Source: Frigoribacterium sp. VKM Ac-2836 (lineage in GTDB: Bacteria > Actinomycetota > Actinomycetes > Actinomycetales > Microbacteriaceae). Taken from it: 64,000 nt of DNA. The position numbers and the translations under genes were made by a program. Positions 2,474 to 52,975 of this stretch are shown piece after piece. The notes below the pieces were generated by a model, which did no database searches, was not told where the DNA came from, and saw nothing but the letters and a program-made list of their open reading frames with translations. The first letter of the stretch is position 1, and each line of letters begins with the position of its first letter. The DNA lies in assembly GCF_013248995.1 (NCBI RefSeq), contig NZ_JABRPK010000001.1:558001-622000 (forward strand), written 5' to 3'.

Positions 2474-3969
2474 GAGGTGGCCCCGACCCGCGCGGTGTCG
2501 ACGAGTCGTCGGGCGACCCCCTGCTCGTCGATGCTCACGAGGTGGCCGCCCCAGAACACCACGGTGCCCGACGTCGAGGTCGACCAGAGTCGCCGTCCGT
2601 CGTCCAGGTCGAGCGCCGCCACGTCACGTCCCGACGACCGACCGTCGTCGGTCTGCAGGTAGAGCACCGACCGACCCGCCACCGCCAGGTCGTCGAGCAG
2701 CCCGACGGACGCGCTGAACCGGGTGTGCCCGTCGGCGCCGTCCAAGGCGAGCAGGCGCGACCCGCCCGACCGTTGCACGATGACGAACACGTCGTCGCCG
2801 CGTTGGCCGGGCACGGCTTCGACCGCGAACGGTGCGCCCAGGTCGGTGGTCCAGCGGGCCGTGCCGTCGCGCGGGTCGAGGCACTCCGCCGTCGTGTCGT
2901 CGCCGGTCACCACCAGGACGCAGGACGGCGTGACGGACAGGCGACGGCCACTGGTCGGCCTGCTCCAGACGGCTTCGCCGTCCTCGTCCAGCGCCTCGAC
3001 GGTGCCGTTCGCGCGGGTCCGCTCGATGCCGAAGGCGACGACGCGGCGGCCGCCGCCGGCCGTCACGGACGAGCCGTCGGGTGGCACGGCGATCTCATCG
3101 GGCGACGCCGCGAAGGGACGTTCCCGGCCCGTGACGCCGTCGACGAACACCGTCTCGCCGCCCCTCGACACGAGGGCGCCGTCGTTCAGCAGCGCGGGTG
3201 AGCTGCCCGTGTCGACCCCGCCCTCCCACACCGGGTCGGCGAGACGGGAGGCGTCCACGAGCTGGTACCGGTCGCCCGATCCGGCGATGCCCGAGAACGT
3301 GCGCAGTTGCAGGCGTCCCCGCGAGTCGACGCCGACGCTCGGCAGGTCGCGTCGGCCGCGGGTGGACTCGGCCAGGGTCCCGTCCTCGAGGTCCAGCGCC
3401 GCGAGCACCGTCGCCCCCGTCGTCTGCGTCTGCACCAGCACGCGACCGGCCGAGGGCACGACCTCGGTCGCGGGGATGCTCAGGGCGTCGGTGTCGGGGA
3501 CGTCCCTGGCGAGGTCGTGAACCCACCGGACCGTGCCCGTGGCCGTCTCCACCAGGCCGATCAGGCTCGTGCTGGCCTCTGAGGCGTACGACCGGCAGGC
3601 CGGCGCGCCCAGGGCGTCGCCGAAGTCGAGGTCGACCGAGGTGCCGACCGCCACGAGCCCGTCGACGGCCGGCGACGTCCAGAAGTTCAGGCAGCGGCGG
3701 GGCGCGTCCGGGGCGAGCGCCGCGGCCAGGTCGAGCGTCCAGCCGGTCGCGTCGGGCGACCGTCTGAGGTCGTCGACCGCGAGACCGGTCCACGGTCGGC
3801 CGTCACCGTAGTGCGGAGCCACCGAGACCGCCCCGGCGGCCACGATCGTGGCCGCCCCGACCAGAGCGGCCAGCACGGCGACGAGGCGACGACCCGGGGA
3901 GGCGCGGTGCCAGCGGTCGACGGCCCGCGCCTCCTCGGGGCGGTCGCGTGCGCTCTCGGAGTGGCTCAT
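2470..3969 (-). CDS. Membrane-anchored PQQ-like beta-propeller protein, copy 2
   Basis: The 499-residue protein has a cytoplasmic N-terminus of about 28 residues, a membrane segment near residues 29-50 and a propeller of repeated WxxD/GxxRW blades. Its [11 protein letters not shown] segment matches GIAVDDLRQRP of copy 1, showing tandem duplication. A GAGGAGG Shine-Dalgarno sequence lies before the ATG at 3969. It is the first gene of the two-gene operon. Function is unknown; a surface binding or scaffolding role is only a guess. Confidence 0.8.
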
Positions 3970-4139
3970 GGTCGGCCTCCTCGTCGAGCGCTGCCGTCGT
4001 CCGCCGGACGGGTGTCGTCATGCTATTCGGAGCCCTCGCCCCAGGTGCTCGCCACGGACCCGGTGACGCACCGGGAATGGTCGTCGCCGCGGCGGCGTTC
4101 ACCCCGCGAGCGTCGAGAAACGTGCCGGAAACACTGGCG

Positions 4140-4145
4140 TAGACT
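4140..4145 (+). promoter_or_regulatory. Candidate -10 box of the leuCD-murA operon (TAGACT)
   Basis: TAGACT lies 37 bp before the GTG start of leuC in the 213 bp gap between divergent genes. A clear -35 box is not visible. The rest of the gap (3970-4182) shows no gene or stable hairpin that I could identify. Confidence 0.45.
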
Positions 4146-4182
4146 CCACGGATCATCTTGCCGTCGATACAGGAGAAGGGGC

Positions 4183-5679
4183 GTGCCCGTGGGTAGGACG
4201 CTGGCCGAGAAAGTGTGGGACGACCACGTCGTCGTCAAGGGCGAAGACGGCGCCCCCGACCTTCTCTACATCGACCTCCACCTCGTGCACGAGGTCACCA
4301 GCCCCCAAGCGTTCGACGGACTGCGCCAGGCCGACCGGCCCCTCCGCCGCACCGACCTGACGATCGCCACCGAGGACCACAACACGCCGACCCTGGCGAT
4401 CGACAAGCCGATCGCCGACCTCACCAGTCGCACCCAGATCGAGACCCTCCGCCGCAACACGGCCGAGTTCGGCGTGCGTCTGCACCCGCTGGGCGACGCC
4501 GAGCAGGGCATCGTGCACGTCGTCGGCCCGCAACTCGGCCTGACCATGCCGGGCATCACCGTCGTCTGCGGCGACTCCCACACCTCGACCCACGGGGCCT
4601 TCGGGGCCATGGCGTTCGGCATCGGCACGAGCGAGGTCGAGCACGTCATGGCCACGCAGACGCTGCCGCTCAAGCCGTTCAAGACCATGGCGGTCACGGT
4701 CGAGGGCACGCTGCGCCCCGGCGTCACGGCGAAGGACATCATCCTCGCCGTCATCGCGCAGATCGGTACCGGCGGCGGCCAGGGCTACGTGCTCGAGTAC
4801 CGGGGCAGCGCCATCCGGGCCCTGTCGATGGAGGGGCGCATGACGATCTGCAACATGTCGATCGAAGCCGGTGCCCGGGCGGGCATGGTGGCGCCCGACC
4901 AGACCACGTACGACTACCTCCAGGGCCGGCCGCACGCTCCGACCGGGACGGACTGGGACGACGCCGTCGCCTACTGGGACACTCTGCCGACCGACGACGA
5001 CGCCGTGTTCGACGCCGAGATCTTCCTCGACGCCGATGTTCTCGAGCCCTTCGTCACCTGGGGCACGAACCCGGGCCAGGGCGTGTCGCTCAGCGACTCC
5101 GTGCCCGACCCCGAGGCCGTGGTCGACCCCAACGAGAAAGCCGCGGCGACTCGCGCGCTCGAGTACATGGCGCTCGAGGCCGGTACTCCGATGAAGGCCA
5201 TCCCCGTGGATGCCGTCTTCATGGGCTCGTGCACCAACAGCCGCATCGAAGACCTCCGGGCATTCGCGTCCATCATCCGTGGCCGCACCAAGGCCGAGGG
5301 TGTGCGCGTCATGGTCGTGCCGGGCTCGGCCCGCGTGCGACTCGAGGCCGAGGCCGAGGGGCTCGACGAGGTGTTCACCGACTTCGGTGCCGAGTGGCGT
5401 TTCGCCGGATGCTCGATGTGCCTGGGCATGAACCCCGACCAGCTCGCTCCGGGCGAACGCTGCGCGTCGACCTCGAACCGCAACTTCGAGGGCCGCCAGG
5501 GCAAGGGCGGACGGACGCATCTCGTCTCGCCGCTCGTCGCCGCGGCGACCGCCGTGCGCGGCACGCTGTCCTCTCCGTGGGATCTCCAGGCCGACGATGC
5601 CGCGGCGGCATCCGCCGACGTCCGGATGACCGACGAGCCCGTCCTCGCCGACGGCACCGACCGGGCAGGGGCCCTCTGA
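4183..5679 (+). CDS. leuC: 3-isopropylmalate dehydratase large subunit
   Basis: The 498-residue protein is the large subunit of isopropylmalate isomerase, which converts 2- to 3-isopropylmalate in leucine synthesis. The three cysteines that hold the 4Fe-4S cluster are C350 (MGSCTNSR), C410 and C413 (GCSMCLGMN). The upstream reading frame is open much further, but the GTG at 4183 is chosen because AGGAG at 4171 lies 7 bp before it and the protein then begins as family members do ([12 protein letters not shown]). Its stop overlaps the leuD start by 1 bp. Confidence 0.97.
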
Positions 5680-6275
5680 TGCAGAAGTTCACGACCGTCA
5701 CCGGGGTCGCCGCGCCGCTCCAGCGATCGAACGTCGACACCGACCAGATCATCCCCGCGCAATTCCTCAAGCGGGTCACCAAGACCGGCTTCGAGGACGC
5801 CCTCTTCTTCGGTTGGCGCAACGACCCCCAGTTCGTGCTCAACCGGCCCGAGTTCCAGGGCGCCCGCGTCCTCGTCGCCGGCCCGGACTTCGGCACCGGC
5901 TCGAGCCGCGAGCACGCCGTCTGGGCGCTGCGCGACTTCGGCTTCGACGTCATCATCAGCTCGCGCTTCGGCGACATCTTCCGGGGCAACTCGGGCAAGC
6001 AGGGACTGCTCGCCGCGGCCGTCGACGAAGCGGACGTCGAGAGCATCTGGGCCGAGATCGACCGTCGGCCGGGCATCGAGATCACGGTCGACCTCGAGGC
6101 GCAGACCGCCACGATCGGCAGCCTCACCGTCGGATTCGAAGTCGATGCCTACACTAAGTGGCGTCTCCTCGAAGGCCTCGACGACATCGGCCTGACCCTC
6201 CGCGACGAAGCGGCCATCACAGAATTCGAATCCCGCCGCGCCACCTGGCGCCCGAAGACATTGCCGGTGAAGTAA
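5679..6275 (+). CDS. leuD: 3-isopropylmalate dehydratase small subunit
   Basis: The 198-residue protein has the small-subunit signatures [15 protein letters not shown] near the N-terminus and [17 protein letters not shown] in the middle. It completes the isomerase with LeuC. The ATG lies in TGATG with the leuC stop, so the two are translationally coupled. murA follows with no gap. Confidence 0.97.
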
Positions 6276-7643
6276 GTGAACTCTCTCGTCCAAGACGCAG
6301 CAGCAGCAGGCGCCCGTGTGGGACTGACCTCCGATGAGATCGTCATCCGAGGCGGCAAGCCGCTGATCGGTCGCATCGAGGTGCGTGGTGCCAAGAACCT
6401 GGCCACCAAGGCCATGGTCGCGGCCCTGTTGGGTGACACGCCCAGCATCCTGAAGGACGTCCCCGACATCAGCGACGTCAACGTCGTCCGCGGTCTTCTC
6501 TCGGTGCACGGTGTGCGCATCACCGACCCGGCTCGTGGCGAGATGATCCTCGACCCGTCGAACGTCGAGTCGGCGCACTTCGCCGAGATCGACGCCCATG
6601 CCGGCTCGAGCCGCATCCCCATCCTCTTCTGCGGCCCGTTGCTGCACCGTCTGGGCGAGGCGTTCATCCCCGACCTCGGCGGTTGCCGCATCGGTGACCG
6701 GCCGATCGACTTCCACCTCGACGCCCTGCGTGCCTTCGGCGCCGTCGTCGACAAGTCGTACAACGGCATCCACCTCACCGCACCCAACGGTCTGACCGGT
6801 GCCAACATCGAGCTGCCCTACCCGAGCGTCGGTGCCACCGAGCAGGTGCTGCTGACCGCGGTGCTCGCCAAGGGCGTCACCGAACTGCGCAACGCCGCGA
6901 TCGAGCCCGAGATCATGGACCTCATCGCCATCCTCCAGAAGATGGGCGCCGTCGTCTCGGTCGAGCCCAACCGCGTCATCTTCATCGAGGGCGTCGACAA
7001 ACTGCGCGGCTACACGCACCGAGCGATCAACGACCGCAACGAGGCCGCGAGCTGGGCCTCGGCCGCACTCGCGACCAAGGGCGACATCTTCGTCGAGGGC
7101 GCCGACCAGAAAGACCTCATGACGTTCCTCAACGTCTTCCGCAAGGTCGGCGGCGACTTCGACGTCCACGAGGACGGCATCCGCTTCTTCCACCCGGGTG
7201 GTGAGCTCAAGCCCGTCGTCGTCGAGACCGACGTCCACCCCGGGTTCATGACGGACTGGCAGCAGCCGCTCATCGTCGCCCTCACCCAGGCCCAGGGCAC
7301 CTCGGTCGTCCACGAGACGGTCTACGAGAACCGCTTCCAGTTCACCGAGGCCCTCAACGACATGGGTGCCGACATCACCGTCCACAAGGACGGTCTGCCC
7401 GACCACGACCGCCGTGTCGCCCGACGTGAGTTCGAGCAGGCCGCCGTCATCAACGGACCGACGGCCCTGCACGGTGCCGACATCCGCGTGCCCGACCTGA
7501 GGGGCGGGTTCAGCCACCTCATCGCCGCTCTGACCGCCGAGGGCGAATCGAAGATCAGCAACGTCGGCATCATCAGCCGCGGCTACGAGCACTTCATCGC
7601 GAAGCTGCGCAAGCTGGGCGCCGACTTCGACTTCAAGGGCTGA
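6276..7643 (+). CDS. murA: UDP-N-acetylglucosamine 1-carboxyvinyltransferase
   Basis: The 455-residue enzyme transfers enolpyruvate from PEP to UDP-GlcNAc, the first committed step of peptidoglycan synthesis. The GAKN motif and a glycine-rich loop with the catalytic cysteine C137 (GGCRIGDRP) are present; this cysteine is the fosfomycin target in the family. The conserved arginine is in DLRGGFSHL. The GTG at 6276 directly follows the leuD stop; a GTG at 6318 is an alternative that would shorten a variable N-terminus. It is likely co-transcribed with leuCD. Confidence 0.96.
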   Translation: MNSLVQDAAAAGARVGLTSDEIVIRGGKPLIGRIEVRGAKNLATKAMVAALLGDTPSILKDVPDISDVNVVRGLLSVHGVRITDPARGEMILDPSNVESAHFAEIDAHAGSSRIPILFCGPLLHRLGEAFIPDLGGCRIGDRPIDFHLDALRAFGAVVDKSYNGIHLTAPNGLTGANIELPYPSVGATEQVLLTAVLAKGVTELRNAAIEPEIMDLIAILQKMGAVVSVEPNRVIFIEGVDKLRGYTHRAINDRNEAASWASAALATKGDIFVEGADQKDLMTFLNVFRKVGGDFDVHEDGIRFFHPGGELKPVVVETDVHPGFMTDWQQPLIVALTQAQGTSVVHETVYENRFQFTEALNDMGADITVHKDGLPDHDRRVARREFEQAAVINGPTALHGADIRVPDLRGGFSHLIAALTAEGESKISNVGIISRGYEHFIAKLRKLGADFDFKG

Positions 7644-7650
7644 TCGACCG

Positions 7651-8433
7651 GTGTCGACAGCCGACCCCGACGCTCCCGTCGTCCCGGTCCCGGCGAGCCG
7701 GCGTCGCAAGGAGAAAGGCGCGATCTTCCGCCTCCTCGCGACGCCCGCCGCGCCGCTCTTCGACCTGATGGCGTCCATCGACATCCTCGACGGGCACAAG
7801 TTGCCGGCCGAGGGCGCGTTCGTCCTCACGCCGAACCATTACACGAACATCGACCCGGTCGTCGTCGGCCGCGTGATGTGGGCCCTCGGGCGCGTGCCGC
7901 GCTTCCTCGCCAAGGCGTCGTTGTTCCGTGTGCCGGTGTTCGGTCGGCTGATGCACGCCATGGGCCACATCCCCGTCGAACGGGCCGGCCGCACGCACGA
8001 CAACGATCCTCTGGCAGCCGGTCGCACGCTCGTCGCCAGCGGGGGTGGTGTGATCGTGTATCCCGAGGGCACGCTGACCCGCGACCCCGACCTCTGGCCG
8101 ATGAAGGGCAAGAGCGGTGCGGTCCGTCTCGCCCTCGCCGCCGGGGTCCCGGTCATCCCCATGGCGCACTGGGGCAGCCAGCACCTCATGGGACGCTATT
8201 CGAGCCGTCTGCGGGCCTTTCCTCGCAAGCGCATCACCGTCGTGGTCGGTGATCCGGTCGACCTCTCGGCCTACCGCGGCCGGCCCCTCGACCAGGCGTC
8301 CGTCACGGCCGCCACCGCGCTGGTGATGGAGGCCGTCACCGAGCTCGTCGAACGGCTCCGCGGCGAGAAGGCCCCCGTCGAACGGTGGAACCCTGCCAAG
8401 AACCACCAGAAAGAGACAGGTCGTTTTGAGTAG
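7651..8433 (+). CDS. plsC: 1-acyl-sn-glycerol-3-phosphate acyltransferase family protein
   Basis: The 260-residue protein has the HX4D acyltransferase motif (NHYTNIDP, H63 and D68) and the later YPEGT motif that binds the glycerol-phosphate substrate. It would acylate lysophosphatidate in phospholipid synthesis at the inner membrane face. It starts 7 bp after murA and overlaps gpsA by 8 bp, so it belongs with glycerol-phosphate metabolism downstream. Specificity among acyl acceptors cannot be told from sequence. Confidence 0.9.
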   Translation: MSTADPDAPVVPVPASRRRKEKGAIFRLLATPAAPLFDLMASIDILDGHKLPAEGAFVLTPNHYTNIDPVVVGRVMWALGRVPRFLAKASLFRVPVFGRLMHAMGHIPVERAGRTHDNDPLAAGRTLVASGGGVIVYPEGTLTRDPDLWPMKGKSGAVRLALAAGVPVIPMAHWGSQHLMGRYSSRLRAFPRKRITVVVGDPVDLSAYRGRPLDQASVTAATALVMEAVTELVERLRGEKAPVERWNPAKNHQKETGRFE

Positions 8434-43893: not shown

Positions 43894-45419
43894 GCGTCGC
43901 GCGGACGAGGGCGGTCGCCCTGTTGGGCGTCGACGGTGCTCTCGTCGAGATCGAGGCCGACATGGGTGCCGGGCTGCCGGCGTTCGTGATCATCGGTCTG
44001 CCCGACACGTCGCTGGGTGAGGCCCGCGACCGGGTCCGGTCCGCTGCGACGAACTCCGGGTGCGCCTTGCCGGCGCGCAAGCTGACCGTCAACCTGTCAC
44101 CGGCCTCGCTGCCCAAGCAGGGGTCGTCGTTCGACCTCGGCATCGCCATCGCGGCCCTGGCCGCCGCCGAACTCGTCCCGGCCGACTCCGTCGAGCGCGT
44201 CGTCCACCTCGGCGAGCTCGGCCTCGACGGTCGACTCAGGCCCGTCGACGGCGTCCTGCCCGCCGTGCTCGGTGCTCGCCGGGCCGGGGCGACCACGGTC
44301 ATGGTGCCGACCGACAACGCCGACGAGGCGGCCCTCGTCCCCGGCATCCGTGTCGTGGCCGTACCGAGCCTCCGCGAGGCCGCCATCTGGCACGGGGCGA
44401 CGCTCGAGCCCGAACCGGTCGAGGCCATCACGAGGTCGCGCTCAGAGTCGGTGGTACCCGCCGAACTCGATCTCGCGGACGTCATCGGCAACGTCGACGC
44501 CGTCGAGGCGCTCGTCGTCGCCGCAGCCGGTGGGCACCACCTCTTCATGGTGGGACCTCCCGGGGCGGGCAAGAGCATGCTGGCGGCCCGACTCCCGGGG
44601 CTGCTTCCCGACCTCGACGCCGACTCGGCCCTCGAGGTCGCGTCGATCCGTTCGTTGGCCGGTGTGGCCGTCACCGGTGACCTCGACCGCAGGCCACCGT
44701 TCGAGGCCCCTCATCACACCTGCAGCGCGGCGGCCCTCGTCGGCGGTGGCAGCGGGGTGATCCGGCCCGGTGCCGCGTCGAGGGCGACCCGGGGCGTGCT
44801 GTTCCTGGACGAGGCCCCCGAGTTCCAGCAGTCGGTGCTCGACTGCCTCCGGCAGCCTCTCGAGTCGGGCGAGACGGTGGTCCATCGGTCCCGGGCCGTG
44901 GCACGTTTCCCGGCGAGGTTCCAACTCGTCGCCGCGGCCAATCCCTGCCCCTGCGGTCACTACGGTTCGCGTGACTCGGAGTGCAGTTGTTCCCCGCACC
45001 AGCGACGTCGGTACCTCGGAAAGCTCTCGGGGCCGCTCGTCGACCGCATCGACCTGCAGTTGCGGGTCGCCCGCATCAGCTCCTCGCAGTTCCGTGCCTC
45101 GTCCGACACGGTCTCGACGACGACACGGCAGGCCCGCGATCGGGTCGACCGCGCACGCAGCCGCGCCGCGCGACGACTCGACGGGACACCCTGGCGGCTC
45201 TCGGGTGAGGTGCCGGGCGCCTGGCTGCGTGATCCGGCGAACCGCCTGGCCGTGGCGGACTCGCAGCCCGTCGACCGGGCCCTCGAAACGGGTTCTCTGA
45301 CGATGCGGGGGTACGACCGCGTGCTGCGCGTCGCCTGGACCCTCGCCGATCTCGACGACGAAGGCGCTCCCGTCCGCCGTCACGTCGTGCGGGCCCTGAG
45401 CATGAGGCAGTCGCGGTGA
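43890..45419 (+). CDS. comM: ComM/YifB family AAA+ ATPase (Mg-chelatase-like)
   Basis: The 509-residue protein has the N-terminal ChlI domain (ALLGVDGALVEIEADMG), Walker A GPPGAGKSMLA, Walker B GVLFLDEAPEF, a zinc-type cluster CPCGHYG...C.C and the C-terminal helical domain. In other bacteria ComM is a helicase that moves branches during natural transformation. It overlaps yraN and dprA by 4 bp each, so the three form one operon. It is intact, unlike dprA. Confidence 0.94.
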   Translation: MSVARTRAVALLGVDGALVEIEADMGAGLPAFVIIGLPDTSLGEARDRVRSAATNSGCALPARKLTVNLSPASLPKQGSSFDLGIAIAALAAAELVPADSVERVVHLGELGLDGRLRPVDGVLPAVLGARRAGATTVMVPTDNADEAALVPGIRVVAVPSLREAAIWHGATLEPEPVEAITRSRSESVVPAELDLADVIGNVDAVEALVVAAAGGHHLFMVGPPGAGKSMLAARLPGLLPDLDADSALEVASIRSLAGVAVTGDLDRRPPFEAPHHTCSAAALVGGGSGVIRPGAASRATRGVLFLDEAPEFQQSVLDCLRQPLESGETVVHRSRAVARFPARFQLVAAANPCPCGHYGSRDSECSCSPHQRRRYLGKLSGPLVDRIDLQLRVARISSSQFRASSDTVSTTTRQARDRVDRARSRAARRLDGTPWRLSGEVPGAWLRDPANRLAVADSQPVDRALETGSLTMRGYDRVLRVAWTLADLDDEGAPVRRHVVRALSMRQSR

Positions 45420-46204
45420 GCGACCTCCTCCGGGCGACCCGTGCCGAGCTGGCCGATCTCGTGCGTCCGGTCCTGCCAGGGGGCGACGACCTCGACGAGG
45501 CACAGGCCGTCCGGGCGTTCGCCCTGGGCGCCTGGACGGGTGTGGTCGAGCCGGGCGACGCGGTCGGTGGGGTCGTCCGGGCACTGCTCGGGCCGACCGT
45601 CGGACTGCGCGTGGTGCTCGAGGCGGCGGCCGTCGGTCGTGACGAACCCCGCCCGGGGCTTCTCGCGAGAGCCCTCGTCGAGGCCGGGGCGACGGGAGAC
45701 GAGGTCGGACGGCTCGATCTCGTGCGAGCACTGAACAGATGGCGGCCCCGTCTCGAGACCGCCGTGGTCCTCCGAGTGTTCCGCACGGCGACGGCGGTGG
45801 GGTCGAGGCTGCTCGTGCCGAGCACGCCGCTCTGGCCCGAGGCGCTCGACGAACTGGGCGACCACGCACCCGTGGCCCTCTGGGCGCGAGGCCCCGCGTC
45901 CGTCCCGGTGCCGGCGTCGAGCATCGCGATCGTGGGTGCTCGAGCGGCCACGGCCTACGGCGAACAGATGTCGGCCGAACTCGCCGGCGGCCTCGCCGAC
46001 CGCGGCCTGGCCGTCGTCTCGGGTGCCGCATACGGCATCGACGGGGCCGCCCATCGGGCGGCCCTGGCCGCGTCGGCTACGACGATGGCGGTGATGGCCG
46101 GGGGAGTCGACCACCTCTACCCGGCCGGACACGACGACCTCCTCCGACGCATCGTCGACACGGGTGTCCTGGTCTCCGAGGCGCCGTGCGGCGGCAAGCC
46201 GTCC

Positions 46205-46235
46205 CGGTGGCGGTTCCTGCATTGCAAACGTAGGG
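46205..46235. other. Probable attL (left prophage-host junction)
   Basis: DprA similarity ends within cggttcctgca (46211-46221). The next bases no longer fit dprA and lead into the integrase promoter. Serine integrases cross over at a 2 bp core inside short, unlike arms, so the exact core cannot be fixed without attR. Confidence 0.7.
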
Positions 46236-46236
46236 T
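46231..46236 (+). promoter_or_regulatory. -10 box of the integrase gene (TAGGGT)
   Basis: TAGGGT ends 6 bp before the GTG at 46243, so the message is probably leaderless. Its -35 region lies at the attL crossover, partly in host DNA. Confidence 0.5.
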
Positions 46237-46242
46237 TTATGC

Positions 46243-47613
46243 GTGAGCATCCGAACCGCAATCTACGTGCGCCAGAGCCTTGACAAACAAGAGGGCATCG
46301 ACCGGCAGCTAGCTCGCACCCGCGAGTTGGCTGCCGTTCGTGGATGGACGGTGGTGCGTGAATTTGAGGATAACGCGCAGTCCGCCACCAAATCGCGAGG
46401 CGTCAAGAGCGGCTGGGGCCAGATGCTCGCTGCCGCAGACGCCGGGGCCTTCACGCACGTTGTGGCCGTGGACCTGGACAGGTTGATCCGTTCTCAGCGA
46501 GACCTGCTGGAACTCATCGACCGGCATCTGAAGGTTGTGACCGTAGACGGCGAGGTGGACCTGTCCACCGCAGACGGCGAGTTCCGCGCGTCCATGATGG
46601 CCGCGCTTGCCCGCTTCGAGGTGCAGCGCAAGGGTGAGCGCCAGCGCCGGGCGAACCTAGACCGCGCGGCCCGAGGCAAGGCCAACCCCGGACGGCGACG
46701 GTTCGGCTACGAAACAGACGGCAGGACGCCCCGAGAGGCCGAGGCCGTTTGGGTGCGGTGGATGTTCGACCAGGCCCGGGATGGGGCCAGCATTCGGAGC
46801 ATCACAGCCCGACTCATTCAGGAGGGCGTCAACCCGGGCACAGGAACCGCCTGGTCGAACCGCCGTATCCGGGACACGCTCAATAACGAGGTGTACGCGG
46901 GTGCGGTCCGTCACCTCTCTGTCGTCAACTTTGAATCGAACGTCACGCCCATTGTCGATCCCGAGGTAGCTGCCGAGGTTCGAGCCATTCTTGCTGAGCC
47001 CTCTCGCCGCAACACTCCGGGGCCGGGGGTGCGGCACCTCATGTCAGGCATCGTGCGGTGTGGTGTGTGTGACGGCCCCATGCACTACATGCGGGCCTAT
47101 CGCTGCAAGGCGGATGCCAGCCACCCAAGTATCGAAAAGCGATTCGTAGACGAGCGGGTGGCCGAGGAGGTCTTTCTCTGGATTGCAGAGCACCCCGAAG
47201 CCGAGGACGGGCCGGACGGTGCCGCACTAGCACCTCTGCTGGCCGAGGCTGCCGACGTGGACCGCCAGCGCGCTCAGGCTCAAGAGATGGCTCTGTGGGA
47301 TGGCGCAGACCTTCCTACCCTCCGGAAGACTCTTGCAACTCTCGGGAAGAGGGCTGAGACCTTGCGTGAGGCGATAGAAGCTATTCGGGGAGCGTCCGCC
47401 CGGTCCGGGTTTGTCGAGGCCGTACGCGGCGAATGGTGGTCTCGCCGGGAGGTGCGGGAGTTCACCGAGAACGAGCAGGCGGCTTTAGACGCCTGGCCCG
47501 CCTTCTGGGATGCCGCCGACCTGGACAAGCGGCGCGAGCTTGTGCGCTCGACCATGACCGTGACCGTCCACCCGGGGCGGGGTCCCGAACGAATAGAGGT
47601 CGAATGGTATTGA
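46243..47613 (+). CDS. int: Large serine recombinase (phage integrase)
   Basis: The 456-residue protein has the resolvase catalytic domain with nucleophile serine at about residue 11 (AIYVRQSLDKQ) and arginines in DLDRLIRSQRD, then the recombinase domain (RRFGYETDG to NNEVYAGAV), a zinc ribbon with C-x2-C...C...H near RCGVCDG, and a C-terminal coiled coil. It would cut attP and attB and insert the phage in dprA. A recombination-direction factor was not recognised. Confidence 0.95.
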   Translation: MSIRTAIYVRQSLDKQEGIDRQLARTRELAAVRGWTVVREFEDNAQSATKSRGVKSGWGQMLAAADAGAFTHVVAVDLDRLIRSQRDLLELIDRHLKVVTVDGEVDLSTADGEFRASMMAALARFEVQRKGERQRRANLDRAARGKANPGRRRFGYETDGRTPREAEAVWVRWMFDQARDGASIRSITARLIQEGVNPGTGTAWSNRRIRDTLNNEVYAGAVRHLSVVNFESNVTPIVDPEVAAEVRAILAEPSRRNTPGPGVRHLMSGIVRCGVCDGPMHYMRAYRCKADASHPSIEKRFVDERVAEEVFLWIAEHPEAEDGPDGAALAPLLAEAADVDRQRAQAQEMALWDGADLPTLRKTLATLGKRAETLREAIEAIRGASARSGFVEAVRGEWWSRREVREFTENEQAALDAWPAFWDAADLDKRRELVRSTMTVTVHPGRGPERIEVEWY

Positions 47614-47680
47614 CCGAGTTGGGGGGCATACTAAGACCGCCGTGGCGCGCGACACGCCGGTGGCCCGAAATGGGGCCGTG

Positions 47681-47784
47681 GAAAATTTTCTCCCCAACGT
47701 GTGGATAAACCCCCGGATTCCGTGCAGAACCAGGGGAGAACCGGCTTAGAAGTGTTCACAACCTGTGCATGGGCCTGTGGATAA
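47681..47784. other. DnaA-box region, candidate replication origin
   Basis: TGTGGATAA, the complement of the classical DnaA box TTATCCACA, occurs at 47700-47708 and 47776-47784. An inverted repeat TTCTCCCC/GGGGAGAA (47688-47695 and 47733-47740) encloses the first box, and a GAAAATTTTC palindrome lies at 47681-47690. No gene covers this stretch. Origin function is inferred. The rest of 47614-47860 shows no other element that I could support. Confidence 0.45.
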
Positions 47785-47860
47785 TTACAGCCGTGTAACT
47801 AACACCCGACGAGCGACAAATTCGCGTCGTAGACTCGGGGTTACCGCAGGCGGACTTGAA

Positions 47861-47897
47861 AGAGCCCCGCCGAACCAAACGGTTCATGCGGGGCTCT
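47861..47897 (+). terminator. Terminator hairpin, AGAGCCCCGC type
   Basis: AGAGCCCCGC pairs with GCGGGGCTCT, with an inner GAACC/GGTTC stem. It lies 248 bp after the integrase stop, before the first small ORF. Confidence 0.65.
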
Positions 47898-47962
47898 ACC
47901 TTCATCGGGCGACGATCCGGTTCCTACATCTTCTCGTCGCTCACCAACCGAAAGGCACCACC

Positions 47963-48151
47963 ATGGCCGACGGCCATTCGAGGTGCACCCCCGGGTGCAC
48001 CTCCGACATTAGCAGGATTACCAATCCTGTCCGCAACGGCTCGCACGGGCTCGTACACGGATTACGGCTCGTGCAAGCCGTACTCCGAACGTTGTCCATG
48101 TTCGTCGTGTTCGTCATGAGTGTCATGGACTTGTTCGGTCTCACCGGCTAG
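47963..48151 (+). CDS. Small membrane-type protein of unknown function
   Basis: The 62-residue protein has cysteines in RCTPGC and a hydrophobic C-terminal segment (MFVVFVMSVMDLFG). GAAAGG lies 8 bp before the ATG, and a strong terminator follows 18 bp after the stop, which supports a real gene. No family is recognised. The frame is open further upstream, but those starts run through a terminator. Confidence 0.5.
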   Translation: MADGHSRCTPGCTSDISRITNPVRNGSHGLVHGLRLVQAVLRTLSMFVVFVMSVMDLFGLTG

Positions 48152-48169
48152 TTCACGTACACCAACCGG

Positions 48170-48197
48170 AACGCCCCCACCAAATGGTGGGGGCGTT
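48170..48197 (+). terminator. 13 bp stem terminator after the 62-residue ORF
   Basis: AACGCCCCCACCA pairs with TGGTGGGGGCGTT, followed by TCTCTGTT. This is a strong intrinsic terminator for this G+C range. Confidence 0.75.
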
Positions 48198-48282
48198 TCT
48201 CTGTTCGGTGGCCCTCCGCTGACAACCCTCAACCACTACATGAGGATAGTTCTCCTGATTGTCACATGACACGGTCACGTCG

Positions 48283-48441
48283 ATGATGCGGATCACGGAG
48301 GCCGGACTTACTGTCGAATCAGAGGTCGTCCCCCGGCCACCAGGACCGGGGGACTACTCCTCAGGAACCGGGGGCGCAACCCCGGAACCGCTGACCGTAA
48401 GGAAGTCCCGTGCTGGAACGCATCGAGATTCACATCACTAG
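48283..48441 (+). CDS. Possible small ORF overlapping the next gene
   Basis: A frame from ATGATGCGG near 48283 runs to a TAG at 48439-48441 and gives about 52 Pro/Gly-rich residues (MMRITEAGLTVESEV...). It overlaps the next ORF by about 30 bp in another frame. No Shine-Dalgarno sequence or family is evident. It may only be leader sequence; a hairpin of CCCCCGG/CCGGGGG lies inside. Confidence 0.2.
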   Translation: MMRITEAGLTVESEVVPRPPGPGDYSSGTGGATPEPLTVRKSRAGTHRDSHH

Positions 48442-48577
48442 TCCCGCTCAGTGTAGCCATTGCGCGACACACCCTGTAGAGGGGGCCTGGCGTGTTTCCC
48501 GGGCCTGGGAGGGGGTAATTCCGCTGATTCCGGGGATTGCTCGCGCTTACGACCTCTTCAAGGGAGACGGGAGCTAG
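48410..48577 (+). CDS. Small CxxC protein of unknown function
   Basis: The 55-residue protein begins MLERIEIHITSPAQCSHC. The Cys-x-x-Cys followed by Trp-rich and hydrophobic segments suggests a folded, perhaps metal-binding, domain. AGGAAG lies 5 bp before the GTG and a 15 bp stem terminator lies 12 bp after the stop. It is a candidate excisionase or regulator only by position. Confidence 0.55.
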   Translation: MLERIEIHITSPAQCSHCATHPVEGAWRVSRAWEGVIPLIPGIARAYDLFKGDGS

Positions 48578-48588
48578 CCCAGAAAATG

Positions 48589-48623
48589 AGAAGGGCCCCG
48601 CGAACTACTCGCGGGGCTCTTCT
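48589..48623. terminator. Two-way terminator between the small ORFs and the replication operon
   Basis: AGAAGGGCCCCGCGA and TCGCGGGGCTCTTCT pair over 15 bp (one G-T pair) around ACTAC, with T-rich sequence on the right. It can end both the rightward small-ORF transcript and the leftward operon. Confidence 0.8.
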
Positions 48624-48688
48624 TGTTTAACCGAGTGACATATTGGCTAATTAGCGTGTGGCCCACTTCGAATATAGGAAGTGAAGGC

Positions 48689-49960
48689 TTAGGCCATGAT
48701 CCTCATGAGCGTGAATGCTTTGCCGTCGTCGGTCGGGAGCAGTGTTGGCTCAGACGAGTCAGTCCATTTCTTAAACTTCCGGTCCCACTGGCGATACTCT
48801 TTCGAGCTATCCGCCTTCTCGAACCCGCAGGCCTGACGAATGTCCACTTTGGTGCGTGGGGCGCCGTCAGACATAAGAGCCCGGACAGCCTCCAAATCGG
48901 CGTCGGTGTAGGCGGTGTGGTCACGCTGGATGACCGCAGAGTCTTTGTGGCTCGCAACCACGAACCCGTCCAGCTTCACCGGAGCCCCGTCCTTCTGTTT
49001 CCCGTCCTGGGCTGTGTCGGTAGACAGGTAAAAGCCCGCGCTTCCGGCCTTCGCAACAATCACGGTGTCCGCGTTGGACCGGATGACCGAGGACCCACGG
49101 ACCCCGCCCGAGCCCTTATTGACGTGGTGGACGAGGATCACGCTTGAGCCCTCTTTGCGGTCCCGGAGCAGTTTGGCCGCGCGAAAAACCTTGGCCATCT
49201 GAGCCGCATCGTTCTCGTTCTCGATGGCTGCCAGTTGGCTCAGGGTGTCCAGGATGATGAGGTCCGGCTGGAGGTCATCAAGCAACTCGGTGAGCCGAGT
49301 GACGCTCTCTGGGTCTGACAGGTTGACACCAGACTCCAGGTAGTTGACCGCGCCCGGGGCGGGGGAGGTGTGGTGATAGTCATCCCACGCACGCACTCGT
49401 GCACCGAATGAGGACGCGCCCTCAGCAGCTACGTACAGGACGGTGCCTTGCATGGCCTTGTGGTTGGGGAACGGCGGGATGCCCGCCGCCACGCACCGGC
49501 TCAAGTGAATGGTGAGGAAGGTCTTACCAATGCCCGCCTCACCGGCCAGCACCGCAACGGTCCCCTTTTGGATCAGGTCCGGCACCCACCACTCCGGCGC
49601 GGGCCGGGCCAGAACCTCAGCCTCAGGAACTAGCCGTAGCTCATCCGCTCCAGCCATTGCCGCTTTGTAGACGGTTTCGGCTGCGTCCTTGAGGATCATT
49701 TGCTCAAGGAACTTGGACACGGCCTTGTTGAACTTCGGGTCCGACTTCGAGCTTTCGATGGTGTCTTGGACCTGCTGGGCCGTGAGGGGCGTGGAGAAGA
49801 ATTGATCCTCTAGCTCATTGGCTGCCCGCTGGCGCTCATTCATCGCATCGATGCGATGCTGAGCCTCATTGGCATTGTGCTGCCGGGTAGCGGCTAGCTG
49901 TGCCTCATCGCCGGGTGATAGGTCGAATGGGGGCGGAGGTAGCTCACTCATCGCGGTCAC
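48689..49960 (-). CDS. RepA/RecA-like ATPase (phage replication)
   Basis: The 423-residue protein has a coiled N-terminus, Walker A GEAGIGKTF (near residue 142), Walker B DLIILDTLSQL and a third motif ILVHHVNKGSGGVRGSS, as in the RepA hexameric helicase/AAA_25 family. The C-terminus looks like a winged helix. It likely unwinds or loads factors at the phage origin. The start is GTG at 49960, with an ATG at 49951 as the alternative. It overlaps the 34-residue gene by 17 bp. Confidence 0.85.
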   Translation of the reverse strand: MTAMSELPPPPFDLSPGDEAQLAATRQHNANEAQHRIDAMNERQRAANELEDQFFSTPLTAQQVQDTIESSKSDPKFNKAVSKFLEQMILKDAAETVYKAAMAGADELRLVPEAEVLARPAPEWWVPDLIQKGTVAVLAGEAGIGKTFLTIHLSRCVAAGIPPFPNHKAMQGTVLYVAAEGASSFGARVRAWDDYHHTSPAPGAVNYLESGVNLSDPESVTRLTELLDDLQPDLIILDTLSQLAAIENENDAAQMAKVFRAAKLLRDRKEGSSVILVHHVNKGSGGVRGSSVIRSNADTVIVAKAGSAGFYLSTDTAQDGKQKDGAPVKLDGFVVASHKDSAVIQRDHTAYTDADLEAVRALMSDGAPRTKVDIRQACGFEKADSSKEYRQWDRKFKKWTDSSEPTLLPTDDGKAFTLMRIMA

Positions 49961-50048
49961 CGCCGTGCAGCTCGTCTACGGCCTCAGTGAGCCAACGGAG
50001 CATGGCCCACGCCTCGCCAGCCGAGATGGCGTCATCGGGGGCGCTCAT
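49944..50048 (-). CDS. 34-residue ORF between two overlapping phage genes
   Basis: ATGAGCGCC at 50048 starts a frame of 34 codons (MSAPDDAISAGEAWAMLRWL...). It overlaps the upstream gene in ATGA and the RepA-like gene by 17 bp. The tight coupling suggests it is translated. No family is recognised. Confidence 0.5.
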   Translation of the reverse strand: MSAPDDAISAGEAWAMLRWLTEAVDELHGGDRDE

Positions 50049-50350
50049 GACCGGACCTCGAAACGTCCGGTCTCGATCTTGAATTCAACAATCAGGGACG
50101 AGCTGCCGACCAGGTCGCCCCAAAGTAGAGGATCGTCTACGACCCTGATTGGTAGGCGCTGGTGCAGAATGCGGCGATTCATCGCCTCATGGACCTGGTG
50201 GACGGTGAAATCATCGTCATGCAGGGGCACGGTGTAATTAGGGCTGCCCTTTTCATCTGGGTCCCTGTAGAGGGCGATCCCCAGAATGCGGCGGGCCTCG
50301 TAGCGGTCGTCTTCAAGGTAGATGGCAACGAGAGTTTGTGATGATGTCAT
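50045..50350 (-). CDS. Phage protein of unknown function
   Basis: The 101-residue protein (MTSSQTLVAIYLEDDRYEAR...) is mixed alpha/beta with many charged residues and no recognised motif. Other in-frame starts are GTG at 50377 and 50407. It is the first gene of the leftward replication operon, beginning about 145 bp from the TTAGACAC repeats. Confidence 0.65.
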   Translation of the reverse strand: MTSSQTLVAIYLEDDRYEARRILGIALYRDPDEKGSPNYTVPLHDDDFTVHQVHEAMNRRILHQRLPIRVVDDPLLWGDLVGSSSLIVEFKIETGRFEVRS

Positions 50351-50493
50351 GGTTACATCAACTGCTGTGTAGGACACTGTGTATTCTTTCTCTTGTGAGG
50401 TACGCACTTTGGTGGCGCATGTCTATGATTACACAATAATCAAACATCAAGGTGAGCCTAACATATATGACTTTCGAGTCAAGTTTCGGAAAG

Positions 50494-50632
50494 TTAGACA
50501 CAGAATTAGACACTCTTTTAGACACCTGAGGCACCCTCTACCCCCTGGGATCGTTGATTTTCCGGGGTTTAGACACGTTAGACACCGAAAGTTAGACACC
50601 CATGCCACACCCGTAGGGTGGCGTGTGTCTAA
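50494..50632. repeat. Array of seven TTAGACAC repeats (iteron-like control region)
   Basis: Exact TTAGACAC occurs at 50494, 50506, 50518, 50569, 50578 and 50592, and inverted (GTGTCTAA) at 50625. The first three have a 12 bp period. Related ATGTCTA words lie at 50419 and 50640. The array separates the leftward replication operon from the rightward late operon. It could bind a replication initiator or a repressor. Confidence 0.85.
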
Positions 50633-50673
50633 TGGTGGTATGTCTAGAAATAAACTGTTGCATGGTTGTCTGC

Positions 50674-50700
50674 TTGACATATGACGGGGTGCAGTAGGCT
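50674..50700 (+). promoter_or_regulatory. Candidate rightward promoter (TTGACA / TAGGCT)
   Basis: TTGACA (50674-50679) and TAGGCT (50695-50700) are 15 bp apart. An A+T-rich CATAAT at 50725-50730 ends 6 bp before the next start codon and is a second candidate. Confidence 0.4.
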
Positions 50701-50736
50701 CCCGTCACTTGTTTGAGTGTATGCCATAATATAAGT

Positions 50737-50949
50737 ATGAACAAGACATGTCAGATAGAGGGGTGCGCAGGTGTGCACTATGCCCTCGGCATGTGCCAGC
50801 GCCACCACAAGGCGGATTGGCTAAGGCGGACCACCGCACCTATCCGCCACCACTCTGAGGCCGGATACCAGCGTGGCTGCCGTGAGGAATGCTGCCGCAC
50901 AGCACACGCCACGTACGCACGTGAGCGTCGAGCAGGGGATGCCTCATGA
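50737..50949 (+). CDS. Small Cys/His-rich phage protein
   Basis: The 70-residue protein has CQIEGC, CQRHH and GYQRGCREECCRTAHATY, a pattern I know from small actinophage proteins with likely zinc-binding sites. No Shine-Dalgarno sequence is seen. It overlaps the HNH gene by 4 bp, so it may assist the nuclease or packaging. Confidence 0.75.
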   Translation: MNKTCQIEGCAGVHYALGMCQRHHKADWLRRTTAPIRHHSEAGYQRGCREECCRTAHATYARERRAGDAS

Positions 50950-51212
50950 GCCAGTACTCATCATCAGGGCCTGAGTGGCAGGCCCTGCGGCTACAGGTGT
51001 TGGCCCGTGACAACCACCAGTGCCAGTGGTGTGGGAAGCCTGACCTTGCAGGTGCAGACGCGACGGTTGACCACTTGATTAGTCGCAAGTCAGGCGGCGA
51101 AGACTCGCTCACCAATTGCATAACGTCCTGTAGGTCATGCAACAGCATCAAGGGTGCGAACGAGCTGGTCCGAATGGCCGGATACAACCCGAAATATCTC
51201 GATCACCTCTGA
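50946..51212 (+). CDS. HNH endonuclease
   Basis: The 88-residue protein has the HNH core CQWCGKPD, VDHLISRKSGGEDS, NCITSCRSCNSIKG. HNH proteins beside terminase genes in siphoviruses help the terminase cut at cos, so it probably acts in DNA packaging rather than as a selfish nuclease. Confidence 0.92.
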   Translation: MSQYSSSGPEWQALRLQVLARDNHQCQWCGKPDLAGADATVDHLISRKSGGEDSLTNCITSCRSCNSIKGANELVRMAGYNPKYLDHL

Positions 51213-51299
51213 CCCTCAGGCCCGGGGGCTTTTCCGTCAGAGCACGGAACACCCCGCCTCCACCTCTTCTCTACGCAAACCAAACCCGAAAGATTTGAA

Positions 51300-51560
51300 A
51301 TGGCCCGTCTGCCAACCACCTATACCGGGGCCGTCCGCGCATTCATCACGGCACACCCCGAGCTGACGGCCACCGACACCCCGGCACTCGTACAGCTCAA
51401 GGCTCTCGCGAAAGAACTCGACGCCGATCCGAGTCAGGGCGCATTGCAGTCCCAGTTTGGGCTCGTCTATCGCAGCCTGGTCAAGCGTGTGGACGCCATG
51501 GCCAACCCCGTGACCACCGACCCTCTTGAGGCTGAACTCGCCGCTCTCGAAAAGCGGTAA
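51300..51560 (+). CDS. terS: Probable terminase small subunit
   Basis: The 86-residue helical protein precedes the large terminase by 5 bp, the position of TerS. Sequence alone does not prove it. The 87 bp gap before it (51213-51299) has a GGCCCGGGGGC-TTTT segment and may hold the cos site. Confidence 0.6.
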   Translation: MARLPTTYTGAVRAFITAHPELTATDTPALVQLKALAKELDADPSQGALQSQFGLVYRSLVKRVDAMANPVTTDPLEAELAALEKR

Positions 51561-51565
51561 GCGCG

Positions 51566-52975
51566 GTGAGAGTTACCCCGCCCCTGTCACCGGATTTCGA
51601 GGCCGACATAGATCGGTATCTGCCGGTCATTCAGCGAGCCTGGAAATCGGGGACGGGGTACTTTCTCGCCGCCTGGCAGGTTGCGATTCTCCGCGGTGCG
51701 ACCGAGCTGTACCCCGAGGGTCACCCTCGCGCGGGTCAACTGAGACACCGCCAGGCCTTCCTTTCGGTGGGACGCCAGGCCGGAAAGTCCGAACTCACGG
51801 CGGCATTCGGTTTGTATTTGCTGCTCCGCGATCTTCGGGGCGCGTACGTGGTTGGTGTCGCCCGCAGCCGGGAACAGGCGGCGTTGATTTATGACAGGAC
51901 CCTCGCCGTCATCCAGTCGAATCCGGCCCTTGCCAGCCGGTTCAAAAAGCTCACAGAGACCCGGGGCATCCGAGCGGTCGCGGGTGGACGCTACGAGCTA
52001 AAGGCCTCATCCTCGGCCAGCCTCCAGGGCATCCCCGTCAGCGGGGGAGTGTGCGACGAGCTGCACCTCCTGAAGCCTGAGGTGTGGGACGCACTAGTCG
52101 CCGGAACCGGTGGACGAGCGAACACCCTTGTCTTCGGTGCCACGACAGCCGGTGACGATGACTCGGAACTCCTGCTCCGTCTCTACGACAACGCCGAGAA
52201 GAGTTTCACCGGCGAGCTGGACCGATTCTTTGCATGCATTTACGAGGCCCCTGAGGCCCGTGTACCGGACGATGACGAGACGTTGGCCGCGTATCTCACC
52301 GCCGCGAATCCCGCCGTTGCTGCCGGATATAAGGATGTCGAGGCCGTCATCTCGGATGTTCGCGCCCTACCGGCTAGTGAAGCCGTTCGGTACTTTCTCA
52401 ATCGGTTCACCTCTGGGGATGCCGGGTGGATGGACCTGAGCATGTGGGCGCAATGCACTGCGACCGAGCCATTCCCCGAGGGTCGGCCCATCATCTCGAT
52501 TGACCGCACCAATGACTGGAAGTCCGCCACCATCGCCGCCGCGGTCAAAGACGATGCCGGAACAGTTTTCACCGAACTCGTTGCGTGGCCGCGCAACCCA
52601 TCCATCGACCGCCTCGAACGCCTGTGCGTCCATCTCTACGGGCGGGGAGTTGCCCTATTTGTCATGGACAGCTTCACCCTGAAAGAGCTGGGGATGCGTC
52701 TCAAGGGGAGGGGTATGCCGGTTCGTTTCATCGGCATGAGCGAGGTCTACAGCAGTGCCAGCCTCTTCTACTCGAAGGTCGCGCACAAACAGGTGCAGCA
52801 CGGCGGAGACCTGCTCTTGACCGTGCAGGTGCCCCGGGCTGCAACGAAGGCCAGAGGAGACGCATACCGGATCGTCAAAGGCCCCAGCCTGACTGATATC
52901 GATTCGGTTATCGCGACGGTGAACGCGGTCTACATTGCGGAAACCTATAACGATTCCGGGCTACAAATCTTCTAA
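51566..52975 (+). CDS. terL: Terminase large subunit
   Basis: The 469-residue packaging motor has Walker A GRQAGKSE near residue 70, Walker B GGVCDELHLL and a C-terminal RNase H-like nuclease domain (ISIDRTNDWKSA). It cuts and pumps DNA into proheads with TerS. GTG-type start at 51566; AAGCGGTAAGCG lies upstream. Confidence 0.93.
   Translation: MRVTPPLSPDFEADIDRYLPVIQRAWKSGTGYFLAAWQVAILRGATELYPEGHPRAGQLRHRQAFLSVGRQAGKSELTAAFGLYLLLRDLRGAYVVGVARSREQAALIYDRTLAVIQSNPALASRFKKLTETRGIRAVAGGRYELKASSSASLQGIPVSGGVCDELHLLKPEVWDALVAGTGGRANTLVFGATTAGDDDSELLLRLYDNAEKSFTGELDRFFACIYEAPEARVPDDDETLAAYLTAANPAVAAGYKDVEAVISDVRALPASEAVRYFLNRFTSGDAGWMDLSMWAQCTATEPFPEGRPIISIDRTNDWKSATIAAAVKDDAGTVFTELVAWPRNPSIDRLERLCVHLYGRGVALFVMDSFTLKELGMRLKGRGMPVRFIGMSEVYSSASLFYSKVAHKQVQHGGDLLLTVQVPRAATKARGDAYRIVKGPSLTDIDSVIATVNAVYIAETYNDSGLQIF

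Follow-up and report, generated by a model that had tools for sequence, protein, structure and literature searches.

A short-repeat array between two divergent operons of a prophage

We analyzed a 64-kb stretch of the genome of Frigoribacterium sp. VKM Ac-2836 (10 contigs, 3.27 Mb), hereafter the window, which carries an 18.5-kb prophage with a dense array of short repeats. The array lies between the minus-strand replication operon, composed of the gene for a 110-amino-acid (aa) protein and an ATPase gene, and the plus-strand late operon of HNH, terminase, portal, protease/capsid and tape-measure genes. Coordinates without an L-number are window positions, and L-numbers label the loci and contigs compared. 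Family scans with Pfam and PHROG covered part of the open reading frames (ORFs) of the window, and statements on scanned ORFs refer to this part. The array and its flanks comprise the following features.

50494..50632, both strands (6 direct, 1 inverted): proposed iteron array, seven exact TTAGACAC (word counts, shuffles)
50494..50525, plus strand: repeat set 1, three copies at a 12-bp period (starts 50494, 50506, 50518)
50526..50568, no strand: spacer between the sets, 43 bp, 60% G+C, holding an imperfect inverted repeat
50569..50632, mixed strands: repeat set 2, four copies (50569, 50578, 50592 on the plus strand; 50625-50632 on the minus strand)
50419..50425, minus strand: flanking word TAGACAT (word search)
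50640..50646, minus strand: flanking word TAGACAT (word search)
50378..50493, no strand: AT-richer stretch between the array and the replication operon, candidate melting region (G+C 0.40-0.41 in 100-bp steps vs at least 0.55 inside most flanking genes)

Word counts and shuffles agree with the initial annotation, which had described six direct and one inverted exact copies within 139 bp, three of them at a strict 12-bp period, between replication and late operons. Successive direct copies start 12, 12, 51, 9 and 14 bp apart, the 12-bp period covering three copies or two intervals. The window holds 7 exact TTAGACAC for 0.32 expected, a number reached in none of 100 shuffles. When any 8-mer is counted in spans of 150 bp, the maximum of 7 copies falls at the array and decreases to 4 once 50401-50700 is removed; 100 dinucleotide-shuffled windows likewise give a maximum of 4 copies per 150 bp. 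The even spread through the genome that the initial annotation had named as evidence against its proposal is not observed, seven of the nine copies in the 3.27 Mb being located in the array. With up to one mismatch allowed, the window shows no excess (12 occurrences, including the 7 exact ones, vs 15.7 expected), and the array therefore consists of exact copies.

In the spacer, the imperfect inverted repeat pairs CCCTGGGA with TTCCGGGG (50543-50550 / 50560-50567) around the loop TCGTTGATT. Rfam returns no family at the gathering score for 49800-51400, the single-strand fold of 50480-50650 is unremarkable (z -1.64), and a BLAST search of 48000-52000 against phages gives no match. Among the matches listed for the letters of TTAGACAC in the open literature, titles concern other subjects. 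An ORF of 101 residues (50379-50684), running through the repeats and suggested earlier as a possible binder, matches nothing in Pfam or PHROG at E 0.01, and tblastn at E 0.1 finds no counterpart in four related sequences (L002, L003, L036, L086); it is probably not a gene, and we rejected it as a binder.

The replication operon contains the following features.

50045..50377, minus strand: 110-aa gene, GTG start, first in the replication operon, no known family (orthologues directly behind the array in L002, L003, L036)
48689..49960, minus strand: 423-aa RepA-like AAA_25 ATPase, which we propose as replicative helicase and as binder of the iterons (Pfam, PHROG, PDB profile)
48692..48916, minus strand: last 75 residues of the ATPase, with weak support for a winged-helix DNA-binding domain (profile comparisons)

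AAA_25 (E 1e-31) is the sole Pfam match of the ATPase over the cut-off, with no primase domain, and two PHROG matches named as primase or polymerase families align over the ATPase part. A four-row ATPase profile searched against the PDB at E 0.001 gives a single match, RSF1010 RepA (1g8y, E 3.2e-5). No meaningful family is found for the 110-aa protein in Pfam (best E 0.21), NCBIfam or PHROGs. Features expected of an iteron origin thus occur side by side at this locus: a cluster of short repeats far above chance, an adjoining AT-rich region (G+C 0.40 at 50400-50499) and an adjoining operon with a replication-protein gene, that of the RepA-like AAA_25 ATPase.

The array keeps its place in close relatives and changes its word

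Searches with the ATPase revealed three close relatives: L002 (60% identity), a second prophage in the window's own chromosome (G000:C1 ~930-940 kb; also in L086) with a tyrosine integrase; L003 (53%), from Curtobacterium sp. MCBD17_032; and L036 (51%), a viral contig. When the ATPase alignment (A4) was searched in 394 genomes of the class at E 1e-40, only the window's own genome was found. In all three relatives an orthologue of the 110-aa gene precedes the ATPase gene, and a short-repeat array is located about 100-310 bp upstream of the 110-aa gene. In a six-frame search of 35 loci at E 1, the 110-aa protein appears only in the four close loci.

The arrays were compared in a position-specific test covering -330 to -60 relative to the 110-aa gene (270 bp), with 1000 dinucleotide shuffles for 6-, 7- and 8-mers. 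The best words are TTAGACAC (seven copies) in the window, TGGACAC (six) in L002, TTGGACA (seven) in L036 and TGTACAC (four) in L003. For 6-mers and 7-mers the counts are reached in at most 1 of 1000 shuffles in 4/4 close loci, and the 8-mer P values are 0 for the window, 0.01 for L002, 0 for L036 and 0.60 for L003. The words are absent from one another's regions, except for TGGACA, common to L002 and L036, a pattern that co-evolution of array and binder would produce. In L086, the sequence that contains the second prophage, TTAGACAC does not occur; its 19 kb carry six further copies of TGGACAC beyond those in the array, and the window's prophage carries four. Conservation in relatives, whose absence the initial annotation had named as evidence against its proposal, thus holds for the array and fails for the exact word.

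The terminase and portal of L002 and L036 belong to the window's PHROG families (phrog_9, phrog_12). The window TerL has no tblastn match in L002 or L036 at E 0.1 and the 110-aa protein matches there; the kinship is thus closer for the replication genes than for TerL. L003 has the array, the 110-aa gene, the ATPase gene and an integrase gene within at most 5.6 kb (2512-8110) between two host-type genes, for NAD(P)H-hydrate dehydratase and a HAD hydrolase. No terminase or portal was seen in the part of its ORFs scanned, and its retention of the array with the replication genes indicates that the array goes with these genes. The L003 element appears to be a remnant or mini-element. A conserved gene beside L003, which is recorded as Curtobacterium, shows 76% identity in the window's genome, 75-78% in the 15 searched genomes of its genus and 64-75% in the top hits from other genera, which would tentatively place the host in or near Curtobacterium. 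Very similar hairpins (GAACGCCCCCAC ... GTGGGGGCGTTC), probably terminators, are present at 48170-48199 of the window and 3889-3920 of L003.

Arrays are found at part of the more distant AAA_25 loci

Clusters of 8-mers with up to one mismatch were scored in stretches of 3.2-6.5 kb around RepA-like ATPase genes. The sample of 24 plus 9 loci comprises 31 distinct genes, window included (L049 repeats L061, and L087 repeats L076); the distant loci were chosen by search with the ATPase, which is therefore common to all by selection. Fifteen pieces of 3.6 kb from the window, with the array locus excluded, served as real-DNA background and reach a maximum score of 10. Nine of the 31 distinct loci score higher: the window (14), L036 (14), L063 (12), L065 (15), L040 (13), L038 (12), L078 (14), L083 (13) and L084 (24). 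L002, L037 and L076/L087 score 10 and L039 and L069 score 9, at or below background; lower values are obtained for L003, L058, L059, L067 and L068 (8) and for the remaining loci (5-7). Against 20 mononucleotide shuffles, a weaker control than the real-DNA background, 17 of 24 loci exceed the shuffled sequences. A first scan with exact 7-mers was dropped as an array count because counts in 22 background pieces of the window ranged up to 6, equal to several loci. The association of ATPase and array is thus real in some members of the family; in the others it is either lacking or escapes detection.

Dense arrays lie directly behind the ATPase gene in Idiomarinaceae phage 1N2-2 (L078), Caenibius sp. 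WL plasmid p1 (L084) and Klebsiella pneumoniae plasmid pKp_Goe_795-4 (L083); five other named phages (L077, L079-L082) show none. At 5014-5185 of L084, twelve exact TGCGGAAG occupy about 170 bp behind the AAA_25 ATPase gene, and plasmid p1 also has a terminase gene. The L038 cluster lies inside a 105-aa ORF on a contig with other repeats, and those of L071 and L072, known from earlier scans outside the 31-locus scoring, also lie inside ORFs. The idea of one word common to all arrays was rejected, as illustrated by TGTACAC in L003 and TTGCACTT in L058.

The middle of the array in L003, L036 and L065 contains a similar element, about ATCCC-TTTGTTTAC-GCGGG. A core matrix built from these three loci, chosen by eye, was tested on 13 other arrays against shuffles of each, giving P <=0.04 in six (L002, L037, L058, L063, L083, L087) and a combined P of 1.8e-5, which is not blind, several matches having been noticed by eye before the scan. 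The array of L058, one of the six, is not above background, and 7 of the 13 arrays, window included, have no significant match. A core between the repeat sets may therefore be regarded as a lead rather than a blind-test result.

The same octamer in other viral contigs

The pair TTAGACAC-N4-TTAGACAC occurs in 42 viral contigs, a number of the order of chance by a rough estimate. Thirty of them have two copies in 300 bp, seven have three, and five have at least five (L091, L111, L114, L101, L127), L091 being the window's own phage. L111 carries nine TTAGACAC in both orientations at 3032-3285, at the 3' end of a gene for a VapE-like primase-helicase and around an alternating GC/GT stretch, and L127 has a six-copy mixed-strand TTAGACAC array about 7.5 kb from a VapE-like domain. 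Both arrays have a G+C of 0.44 in stretches of 0.59, and they support replication modules as the context of such arrays. At 474-577 of L114, nine TTAGACAC follow a strict 12-bp period, which suggests a simple tandem repeat rather than an origin.

Boundaries of the prophage and neighboring genes

Two further genes of note lie outside the replication operon.

50740..50949, plus strand: first late-operon gene, with a weak match to HNH endonucleases; HNH, terminase and portal genes come next (Pfam/PHROG)
46243..47613, plus strand: serine integrase of the prophage (Pfam/PHROG)

The initial two thirds of the DprA family PF02481 (profile positions 6-150) are matched by a dprA frame at 45416-46246, and 2733-3203 of L085 (~64.7 kb on the window scale) matches the rest (144-211) plus the DprA winged helix. 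The gene, which serves DNA uptake and recombination, is split beside the serine integrase gene. With halves of PF02481 on both sides, the prophage splits dprA and is about 18.5 kb long, both flanks being seen. Behind the integrase gene, about 1 kb without a recognized gene holds two exact TTATCCACA DnaA boxes on the minus strand (47700-47708 and 47776-47784), 76 bp apart; the window has no other exact ones. Between 47785 and 54947 no DnaA box is found even when one mismatch to the consensus is allowed.

A putative iteron origin and its alternatives

The words of the array, their position and their repetition, the conservation of an array with changing spelling and the link to the ATPase operon are direct observations, and we interpret the repeats as iterons of the prophage replication origin with a probability of about 0.68. 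Of the two readings in the initial annotation, the phage origin is better supported than the repressor target, because an array occurs at the same place in 3/3 close relatives, in each case next to a gene for a RepA-like ATPase and in most cases with a different word, and because short-word arrays adjoin phage replication helicases elsewhere. Binding, melting, helicase loading and origin activity are the functions we infer. After induction and excision, a phage replication protein would bind the 8-bp repeats flanking the 43-bp spacer and open nearby DNA, and the RepA-like AAA_25 ATPase, possibly hexameric by analogy with RSF1010 RepA, would be loaded as the replicative helicase, with priming and synthesis probably provided by host enzymes. 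Since the array sits between the two divergent operons, binding would probably also regulate both.

At about even odds, sequence comparisons favor the ATPase as the binder, through a C-terminal winged-helix-like domain as reported for the Rep proteins of Staphylococcus aureus pathogenicity islands (SaPIs), with the 110-aa protein as the next candidate. Five of ten distant ATPases (L037, L058, L060, L063, L068) show weak C-terminal matches of the helix-turn-helix type (HTH_IclR, HTH_24, MarR_2, AbiEi_4), and an eight-row profile of distant ATPase C-termini finds winged-helix regulators among PDB sequences (best E 0.00068). For the window's own branch a C-terminal winged helix remains weakly supported. 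The predicted model of the 110-aa protein is beta-rich with no clear helix-turn-helix and of low confidence (predicted local distance difference test, pLDDT, 67), which does not support it as an obvious DNA binder.

Several results weigh against an iteron origin read by the ATPase. Twenty-two of the 31 loci have no cluster above the real-DNA background, and L002, L003, L037, L039 and L069 pass the shuffle control or the position-specific test only. The L003 word lacks GACA, contains the palindromic TGTACA and is non-significant as an 8-mer (P 0.60). In the window the two repeat sets surround a 60% G+C spacer and the AT-richer stretches lie outside the array, which agrees only in part with phage-inducible chromosomal islands (PICIs), where the AT-rich region lies between the sets; the array does not match the core matrix significantly (P 0.35), though its inverted repeat sits at the core's place; and the exact DnaA boxes are 2.7 kb away. 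Pfam gives no match for the C-terminus of the window ATPase, and none of the PDB entries that match it best is a winged helix, LexA appearing only at E 0.67; it resembles the distant ATPase C-termini weakly (hhalign probability 11.8%, E 0.0025). Half of the ten distant ATPases scanned, including those of the strong-array loci L078, L083 and L084, have no C-terminal helix-turn-helix match. In the L111 and L127 contigs VapE is present and no AAA_25 was found; the octamer is therefore not diagnostic of a single helicase family, and the C-terminus of the L111 VapE-like protein is unlike that of the window ATPase.

The alternative that survives best, unlikely in our assessment, is a multi-site operator, at which the 110-aa protein or the ATPase would bind cooperatively and silence the divergent replication and late promoters in the lysogen. 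The position of the array between divergent operons is compatible with this role, as is the private nature of the 110-aa protein, which is not found in 31 loci beyond the four close ones and could be a regulator; no other repressor was recognized among the scanned ORFs. A promoter-like site at 50754-50726 would read leftward into the array from about 100 bp away, but one such site is close to the chance number (0.7 expected), and the low-confidence, beta-rich model of the 110-aa protein (pLDDT 67) offers no clear helix-turn-helix. Moreover, L003 keeps its array with no late operon seen there, and the arrays of L069, L078, L083 and L084 immediately follow the ATPase gene instead of occupying a divergent promoter region. 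The stoperator-like repressor target considered in the initial annotation is likewise weakened, as the word is confined to one locus and the scanned ORFs include no recognized repressor.

It seems very improbable that the true origin is 47614-48688, behind the integrase gene, and that the TTAGACAC array has another role: the two exact TTATCCACA boxes 76 bp apart are the sole exact ones in the window and none of five ORFs scanned there has a Pfam match, but the estimated expectation for the window is about one exact box, and no repeat array is seen in this stretch. Still less credible is a centromere-like (parS) array as in mycobacteriophage RedRock, whose repeats are similar in size and number as described in the passages concerned of PMC7157519, given that no ParA/ParB family is found among the scanned ORFs and that the prophage has an integrase and sits in the chromosome. 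A chance or low-complexity repeat with no function, suggested by other TTAGACAC clusters that look like simple 12-bp tandem repeats (L114, L101), can practically be dismissed in view of the shuffle and free-scan statistics, the arrays at the same place in three close relatives and an array position that is kept while the word changes.

Beyond the iteron origin proposed for this prophage, a broader and doubtful extension would be a widespread, undescribed class of phage origins, in which AAA_25 RepA-like ATPases act as combined initiator and helicase and read element-specific 7-9-bp iterons flanking a T-rich core with GC clamps (about CCC-GTGTTTAC-GCGG); differences in iteron spelling would then keep the replication of related prophages in the same chromosome separate. 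Nothing was found in the open literature searched on Curtobacterium prophage origins or on AAA_25 with iterons, and among the matches listed no title or abstract start describes this origin class. If the iteron interpretation is true, the array is a predicted cis-acting origin for small actinobacterial prophages, a simple rule (a private short-word array beside a RepA-like ATPase gene) could serve to find origins in other phages and phage-plasmids, and the replicon could become a vector for Microbacteriaceae. The two related prophages with different words in one chromosome make origin specificity and incompatibility directly testable.

Comparison with known replication systems

Cluster A mycobacteriophage stoperators are dispersed through the genome and bound by the repressor. 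The window array resembles them in repeating a short word many times, as potential binding sites for a phage protein, and differs in that its word is found at one locus only. In phage P4, the alpha protein is a helicase with a C-terminal domain that binds 8-bp iterons (ori/crr); it is a primase-helicase of a family other than the AAA_25 ATPase. Plasmid RSF1010 has iterons at oriV, bound by a separate RepC, and RepB' primes. The window shares with it a homologue of the RepA helicase (E 3.2e-5), whereas no RepC or RepB' primase family was recognized among the scanned ORFs.

In the extrachromosomal mycobacterial prophages Miko, Rachaly and Jeeves, an actinobacterial prophage origin is tied to a gene called repA, a resemblance to the putative origin proposed here, and in the passages concerned of PMC7157519 these RepA-type origins come without identified repeats. 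The same passages describe eight direct repeats of an 8-bp motif in the RedRock parS loci, from which the window differs in having no adjoining parA/parB among its scanned ORFs. A RepA_N satellite origin with iterons is described in part of PMC7145576.

Closer parallels are provided by the helicase-initiators of SaPIs, PICIs and the staphylococcal cassette chromosome SCCmec, for which short repeats next to their genes are described in the relevant parts of PMC7581432 and PMC6092414. According to these parts, SaPI Rep recognizes its iterons with its C-terminal domain (PMC7581432), Escherichia coli PICIs have two iteron sets around an AT-rich region (PMC6092414), and the isolated C-terminal domain of SCCmec Cch2 binds a putative origin next to its gene, with AAGTG direct repeats needed (PMC7581432). 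The Cch2 system differs from that of the window in its D5-type helicase, its three 5-nt repeats and its non-phage nature. SaPI and PICI Reps are DUF927- or D5-type proteins with a primase, whereas the window has an AAA_25 RepA-like ATPase with no recognized primase domain, an array upstream of the operon and an element with its own capsid and terminase genes. Like these replicons, which feature a self-loading helicase, the window has short repeats beside the gene of a proposed helicase, and the repeats would represent a variant of the iteron origin, a kind of origin already known.
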